In this document: positions 27,305 to 28,021 of the stretch, one piece after another
How the letters are laid out: every line of letters starts with the position of its first letter
Position numbering within the stretch: the first letter of the stretch is position 1
DNA from: a virus
Strand: one strand, 5' to 3'
DNA: 28,021 nt
IMG/VR virus record: IMGVR_UViG_3300046171_000041
Coordinates: 1 to 28,021 of that record
Made by a program: the position numbers and the translations under genes
Notes under the pieces: generated by a model
Told to the model about the DNA's origin: nothing
What the model saw: only the letters and a program-made list of their open reading frames with translations
Database searches by the model: none

Positions 27305-27514
27305 TTATGCTGTTTCTTTTAAAAATAAACTTTTAACAAAAGTAACCTTGTAATGTGTATCCCATTTTTGAGACTTAAAGATTAATGTATTCTTTTTGGG
27401 AGTATAAAATTCAATACAATTGTTATTATTTGTTACAGTGAAACCCTCAGATTTTAACCAGTTAATCATAAAATCATTTACTTTTGTATCAACAATGTCT
27501 GTTTCATATTCCAT
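27305..27514 (-). CDS. First gene of leftward early cluster (69 aa)
   Basis: A 69-residue protein: MEYETDIVDTKVNDFMINWL, a NNNNCIEFYTPKKNTLIF segment and a Lys-rich end. AAAAGGAC lies eight bases upstream of the ATG. It is the first gene downstream of the palindrome-rich right-end region, so it is likely the earliest expressed. No family recognised. Confidence 0.6.
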   Translation of the reverse strand: MEYETDIVDTKVNDFMINWLKSEGFTVTNNNNCIEFYTPKKNTLIFKSQKWDTHYKVTFVKSLFLKETA

Positions 27515-27656: not shown

Positions 27657-27782
27657 ATGAGCCACAACATAGGAAAACAGTTAAAGCTACTCAGAGAGCG
27701 TTATATTGAGTGTGAGAGGTATTTCTTGTTTTGTTCTATGTCTGTTCTTTACTGGTGGCATAGTGTGATCACAAAATTATAG
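27657..27782 (+). CDS. Tentative 41-residue rightward frame with XRE-like N-terminus
   Basis: A rightward frame, MSHNIGKQLKLLRERYIECE then a hydrophobic aromatic part ending WWHSVITKL. The first 16 residues resemble the first helix of XRE/Cro-type repressors (IGKxLKxLRER). The rest does not give a helix-turn-helix, and the frame is far too short. No good ribosome binding site is visible. It could be a remnant of a divergent regulator gene or chance. It overlaps one TGTGATCACA palindrome. Confidence 0.2.
   Translation: MSHNIGKQLKLLRERYIECERYFLFCSMSVLYWWHSVITKL
27764..27773. repeat. TGTGATCACA palindrome, copy 1
   Basis: A perfect 10-bp palindrome followed by AAA, identical to the copy at 27838-27847 (centres 74 bp apart, about seven helical turns). 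It lies two bases downstream (leftward) of a TATAAT element, so it would cover the start site of that promoter, as a repressor operator would. Confidence 0.7.
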
Positions 27783-27802
27783 GGTATAGTTTAAGCGTCC
27801 AA
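27776..27802 (-). promoter_or_regulatory. Candidate leftward early promoter
   Basis: Reading leftward, TTGGAC (27797-27802), a 15-base spacer and a perfect TATAAT (27776-27781). The short spacer weakens the -35, but the -10 is consensus. It faces the early gene cluster starting at 27514 and would give a 5' leader of about 250 bases. The TGTGATCACA site lies at the expected start point. Confidence 0.42.
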
Positions 27803-27837
27803 GTAAAGCATAGGGGTATACATAAAATCTTTTGTTC

Positions 27838-27847
27838 TGTGATCACA
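27838..27847. repeat. TGTGATCACA palindrome, copy 2
   Basis: The second exact copy, also followed by AAA. A short direct repeat TTTTGTTCT[AG]TG (27729-27740 and 27830-27841) overlaps this copy and precedes the first. Being identical and in phase, the two copies could be bridged by one protein through a DNA loop. Confidence 0.7.
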
Positions 27848-27854
27848 AATAAAA

Positions 27855-27983
27855 GTTTAGTACTAAACGTTATTCGCAGAGAATTAGTTTAACATTAAAC
27901 TATTTTTGAGCAGTAATACTTTAAGATTAAACTAAAAGTAGTTTAACGTTAAACTATCTGTTTAACTTTCGATAATTAAACAG
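27855..27983. promoter_or_regulatory. Array of five TTTAA/TTAAA dyads, operator or origin candidate
   Basis: Five dyads: GTTTAGTACTAAAC (27855-27868, perfect); 27885-27902 (eight-base arms TAGTTTAA/TTAAACTA, centre CA); 27918-27933 (ACTTTAA-GA-TTAAACT, one flank mismatch); TAGTTTAACGTTAAACTA (27939-27956, perfect 18 bp); and 27958-27983 (arms CTGTTTAA/TTAAACAG with a ten-base centre). Centres are 32, 32, 22 and 23 bp apart, near whole helical turns, so all face the same side of the DNA. A half site, TAGTTTAA, lies at 27787-27794. No gene is visible here. Such spacing is typical of multi-site repressor operators or initiator-binding repeats at an origin. Confidence 0.75.
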
Positions 27984-28021
27984 GGGGTAGATGGGCCATA
28001 TGGGGTTATACGGTTACGTAT
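27984..28021. other. Right edge of the window, no gene seen
   Basis: A G-rich stretch (27983-27987) then an AT-rich end with a CCATATGG palindrome (27996-28003) and an inverted pair ATACG/CGTAT at the very edge (28008-28021). No open frame, promoter or terminator can be assigned. Whether this is a genome end or just the window edge cannot be told. Confidence 0.4.

Follow-up and report, generated by a model that had tools for sequence, protein, structure and literature searches.

A helically phased palindrome array in the divergent early/late control region of CRP-9-type marine phages matches the operator pattern of a MarR/nitroreductase operon

The tripartite operators of lambdoid phages such as lambda and P22 consist of several palindromes of 14–18 bp, graded in strength and placed a few helical turns apart at divergent promoters. 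The array described here, located at the end of a 28,021-nucleotide IMG/VR virus record (the window), resembles them in its graded palindromes and its position at a divergent control region. It differs in that no CI/Cro-type repressor gene was recognised in the window or in Roseobacter phage CRP-9, and in that CRP-9 and CRP-13 were obtained as lytic isolates. In phage phi29, the sites of p4 lie between the divergent early promoters A2b/A2c and the late promoter A3 (PMC3100819). The likeness consists of inverted-repeat sites in the early/late control region of a lytic phage, the array likewise being situated in a divergent early/late intergenic region; p4 is phage-encoded, however, its sites are unlike the array in sequence and spacing, and no p4-like gene was found with Pfam or PHROGs. 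Iteron-type origins differ in that a cognate initiator gene was not found for the array. The palindrome itself recurs in two cellular systems. LacI-family GTTTAACGTTAAAC operators of Enterobacteriaceae and Enterococcus are paired and have the same 14-bp core, but an invariant CG centre and other flanks. An alphaproteobacterial operon encoding a MarR protein and a Tat-signal nitroreductase (Pfam MarR_2, Nitroreductase) carries the same palindrome together with its flanks, at sites phased by about two turns. The cellular operon has two such sites with the MarR gene beside them, whereas the phage has four, most of them separated by three turns, and lacks a MarR gene. We found no paper on the palindrome, and in the one CRP-9/CRP-13 genome paper searched, promoters, repressors and intergenic elements go unmentioned.

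The window covers part of the genome of a CRP-9-type phage, with Roseobacter phages CRP-9 and CRP-13 as relatives. Phages of this type combine modules of HMO-2011-type phages and cobaviruses, two groups that have been called dominant among ocean phages (PMC8528129). A single intergenic region separates the diverging early and late arms of CRP-9 and CRP-13, and it is this region that holds the array. As the window stops inside it, the first genes of the late arm are missing; the leftward early arm opens with a predicted gene of 69 aa (27305–27514, minus strand). Four dyads of the pattern T(A/G)GTTTAA-YR-TTAAAC(T/C)A span positions 27854–27956 (no strand is assigned to the palindromic features). 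Dyad 1 (AGTTTAGTACTAAACG, 27854–27869) is a weaker site with the right half CTAAAC and encloses a perfect 14-bp palindrome (27855–27868); it reads GTTTAATACTAAAC and GTTCAATACTAAAC in L027 and L015, respectively, the closest relatives. Dyad 2 (TAGTTTAACATTAAACTA, 27885–27902) is strong and kept in the aligned relatives, and dyad 3 (TACTTTAAGATTAAACTA, 27917–27934), with a weaker left half, is identical in L027 and varied in L015. Dyad 4 (TAGTTTAACGTTAAACTA, 27939–27956), a perfect 18-bp palindrome, is the best-conserved site, and the 26 bp surrounding it are identical in CRP-13. Dyads 3 and 4 lie 22 bp apart and the other centre distances are 32 bp, also in phase, which places at least two sites on one face of the helix. 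The sequence-only reading had listed five dyads with centre distances of 32, 32, 22 and 23 bp. Its coordinates, distances and both perfect palindromes were confirmed, but the fifth element, a stretched half-site pair at 27959–27982, is absent from L027 and L015 and is probably no site; four dyads are therefore supported. Beyond it, on the plus strand, begins a conserved G-rich core (27985–28021; GGGGCATGGGCCAYGGGGGGTRTACGTATATATGCCCAATGACAG in relatives), a candidate genome terminus that is cut by the window end.

Alignment of six control regions revealed half-sites that are kept and spacers that are altered, in line with the conservation that the sequence-only reading had proposed looking for in related genomes. 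Some eight distinct records have the core in the same locus and a polymerase identity of 73% or more, and every one of them has the array. It was absent from two records with 64% polymerase identity, in one of which this core occupies the same locus. In near-complete CRP-9-type records exact dyads are confined to this one place per genome; a few isolated one-mismatch sites occur outside the array in G397 and G401. The spacing of the dyads was analysed over 105 array-bearing sequences, grouped into 22 similarity clusters and thus 22 non-redundant arrays. Spacings concentrate at 22–23, 28–32, 42–45 and 52–55 bp, with a best-fitting period of 10.75 bp (Rayleigh p ~1.5e-7, an approximate value because the spacings of any one array are partly interdependent and because other periods, from 8 to 12, give some fit as well). 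The helical phasing read from the single array thus extends to the non-redundant set.

Five phages that share the RCA host strain FZCC0023 (CRP-1, -2, -4, -125 and -143) are without dyads, so the dyads are not needed in that strain. Arrays are also found in phages with unrelated terminase and structural (late) genes, DNA polymerase A being the only gene in common; one such phage encodes a TerL sharing 64% identity with its Roseobacter phage CRP-6 counterpart. A cobaviral origin of the array was rejected, as CRP-4, CRP-5 and ICBM2 have no dyads. In dyad-less HMO-type relatives, other repeats or palindromes occupy the array position. Upstream of the core, the dyad-less relatives L196 and L222 carry a run of many different perfect palindromes there, e.g. 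TTCCCCTTTAGGGGAA, TTGGTCTAAAGACCAA and CAATGACTTGTCATTG.

Two adjacent exact dyads were found in 42 stretches across 84,980 genomes scanned, mainly in LacI-type sugar operons of Enterobacteriaceae and Enterococcus and in the Tat-nitroreductase/MarR operon of alphaproteobacterial and some other metagenome-assembled genomes. The former group includes L230, L246, L252 and others, LacI-family sugar-transport operons with paired GTTTAACGTTAAAC sites; the latter includes L263, L229, L350–L361 and other host loci, with paired GTTTAANNTTAAAC-like sites 20–27 bp apart. So that the palindrome itself would not bias the choice, MarR homologues were next picked on protein sequence alone from 289 genomes of the alphaproteobacterial class. 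All 12 of the 12 best homologues (seed excluded) have two dyads 21–24 bp apart upstream of the nitroreductase operon, at the operon head and about 1.2 kb from the MarR gene; weaker homologues are mostly without paired dyads. Symmetrised profiles, built from 28 MarR-locus sites found through the protein and from 68 phage sites, agree in T at −9 (0.91 vs 0.89), A/G at −8 and the YR centre, where the core columns of the MarR profile are biased by the ≤3-mismatch scan that located the sites, the flanks lie outside that scan, and one of the phage scans required TA flanks of one site per array. The phage array shares the palindrome of the MarR/nitroreductase operator, flanks included. LacI-type sites have A/T at −9 and always CG at the centre, and these differences led us to reject the LacI type as the operator class of the array; as its operators have the same core, the palindrome does not by itself suffice to identify the protein. 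In L263 a dyad lies between TTGACA and TATACT, as a repressor site would. A widespread alphaproteobacterial operator was not borne out, the exact 18-mer occurring in only 4 of 385 sampled genomes of the class, and no named Rhodobacterales plasmid with MarR or nitroreductase was among the matches listed.

Conserved half-sites with variable spacers, phasing, the divergent control region and the identity with MarR operators together give good support to an operator array for a phage or host regulator, as the sequence-only reading had suggested. More tentatively, and as the reading we prefer, the dyads may be operators of a MarR-type, most likely host-encoded, regulator of the divergent early/late control region. 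They would serve a dimeric winged-helix protein as a series of four operators, graded in strength and placed on one helix face, 2–3 turns apart, between the early and late arms. Through cooperative binding, this protein would then control how host RNA polymerase transcribes the early arm, the late arm or both. The regulator would most likely belong to the host MarR subfamily whose alphaproteobacterial gene adjoins the nitroreductase operon with the same palindrome upstream. A host origin is favoured because unrelated phages have the sites in common but no regulator gene, and is weakened by the same-host phages without dyads. No MarR gene was found among the early proteins of the window or the small proteins of CRP-9; a pattern search of IMG/VR, which could miss divergent relatives, retrieved no MarR relatives in phages, and INPHARED provided weak generic matches only. 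The narrower proposal that the array silences the early cluster is more tentative than the operator array itself: no sigma-70-like promoter overlapping the dyads was found in the window by a consensus scan with 16–18 nt spacers, and the late arm faces the same region. We consider it rather unlikely, if worth stating, that unrelated lytic marine phage lineages independently carry host MarR operator arrays, and that phage expression is coupled to, or titrates, a ligand- or redox-sensing host regulator. The array would represent a concrete switch in these marine phages; if its binder is a host MarR protein, a lytic phage would read the state of its host through a borrowed operator, and one operator would be common to unrelated phages.

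The main rival to a host MarR protein is a phage-encoded regulator unrecognised by sequence, such as a small divergent helix-turn-helix protein, a ribbon-helix-helix protein or another fold, acting in an early-to-late switch like that of phi29 p4. This is possible, if somewhat doubtful. The topology is the same as that of the phi29 early/late switch region (PMC3100819), the array is limited to certain phage lineages even on one host strain, and inside the group its presence follows the CRP-9-type early module (found at polymerase identities of at least 73%, absent at 64%). The protein searches argue in the opposite direction. Neither the small proteins of CRP-9 nor the early proteins of the window include a helix-turn-helix regulator by Pfam or PHROGs (at most 25 families listed, so that weak PHROG matches may be hidden), and the earlier remark that no recognised repressor gene is present holds for the proteins scanned. 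Across lineages no gene family tracks the dyads except the broad polymerase A family, also the only one common to array-bearing lineages, and none of the phage families examined as candidates on this basis was regulatory. A phage-encoded binder would thus have to be a different protein with the same 18-bp specificity in each lineage, or one protein too diverged to be seen.

A replication origin at the genome end or within the divergent region, with the dyads as repeats bound by an initiator, is an improbable explanation. Multiple phased repeats beside an AT-rich stretch would suit an origin, and the cumulative GC skew of the window, a check put forward in the sequence-only reading, indeed reaches its minimum at the array end; the skew is, however, accounted for by gene orientation. 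Position apart, nothing positive points to an origin. Replication by a T7-like polymerase and primase-helicase is not normally iteron-based, cobaviruses with a related replication module have no dyads, and neither Pfam and PHROGs scans nor the gene-family comparison recognised an initiator gene. Moreover, the dyads are palindromes, not direct iterons, and are the same as a transcriptional operator of a known type.

Still less probable is a role in packaging, with the dyads as pac/cos sites recognised by the small terminase close to a genome terminus. This explanation draws on the adjacent core, which resembles a cobavirus genome terminus, and on two other lineages in which the array lies near terminase genes. 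The core (GGGGCATGGGCCAYGGGGGGT...CAATGACAG) is complete in L027, L015, L074 and L075 and, ending in CAATGACAG, is largely common to HMO-type phages with and without dyads. A core weight matrix gave its top genome-wide score in cobavirus CRP-5 (0.9 bits vs −15.6 for the next), at a position whose sequence counterpart in ICBM2 is the start of the annotated direct terminal repeat. The same matrix found no match at the termini of ICBM2 and CRP-4, CRP-5 alone being positive, and a location of the array just inside the genome terminus is therefore suggested and no more. Contig ends did not define a sharp terminus, as those close to the array fall anywhere from 3 to 1138 bp away from the anchor; some records overlap at their own ends, as closed circles would. 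Candidate small terminases differ among array-bearing lineages, for which reason TerS was rejected as the binder. Furthermore, dyad-less HMO-type phages have the CRP-9-type small terminase too, and what the HMO-type packaging group has in common is the core, not the dyads.

A chance cluster of AT-rich palindromes, to which the AT-rich region and the frequency of lone loose dyads (9 with ≤3 mismatches found vs 5.3 expected) might seem to point, can be dismissed with near certainty given the shuffles, the spacing of the non-redundant arrays and the persistence of the array across dozens of contigs. Mismatches were counted against GTTTAANNTTAAAC for sites within 130 bp, and none of 2000 dinucleotide-preserving shuffles of 27701–28021 gave three sites with ≤1 mismatch or four with ≤2; shuffling the whole window 100 times yielded at most one and two sites, respectively. 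Sequence of the same composition does not reproduce the cluster, and the original observation stands.

Further elements surround the array. A TGTGATCACA palindrome (27838–27847) lies 19 bp, centre to centre, from dyad 1, with columns invariant in the six-sequence alignment. A second copy (27764–27773), kept in L027 and L015, is found just downstream of a candidate early −10, the two copies being 74 bp apart and flanking the early side of the array. The motif is present, too, in the control regions of the dyad-less HMO-type phages CRP-1, -2, -345 and -603, and it is found in other array-bearing phages. As it is not tied to the dyads, an additional regulator may be at work at these palindromes beside the array. 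The −10 belongs to a weak candidate for a leftward early promoter, identified by eye (27776–27802, minus strand): TTGGAC (27802–27797), a 15-nt spacer and TATAAT (27781–27776), the short spacer explaining why the consensus scan did not report it. On the late side, the first gene beside the core (L031:477–731 and homologues) encodes a conserved 84-aa protein (cluster 0) with an all-helical AlphaFold model (pLDDT 90), for which no PDB fold match was found; it was rejected as array binder because it occurs in dyad-less phages too. Between core and late genes, L027, L015, L016 and L200 carry a tiny ORF of about 36–40 aa (MKLYK.../MKIFKKKNKYYL...), which is conserved in 21 loci.
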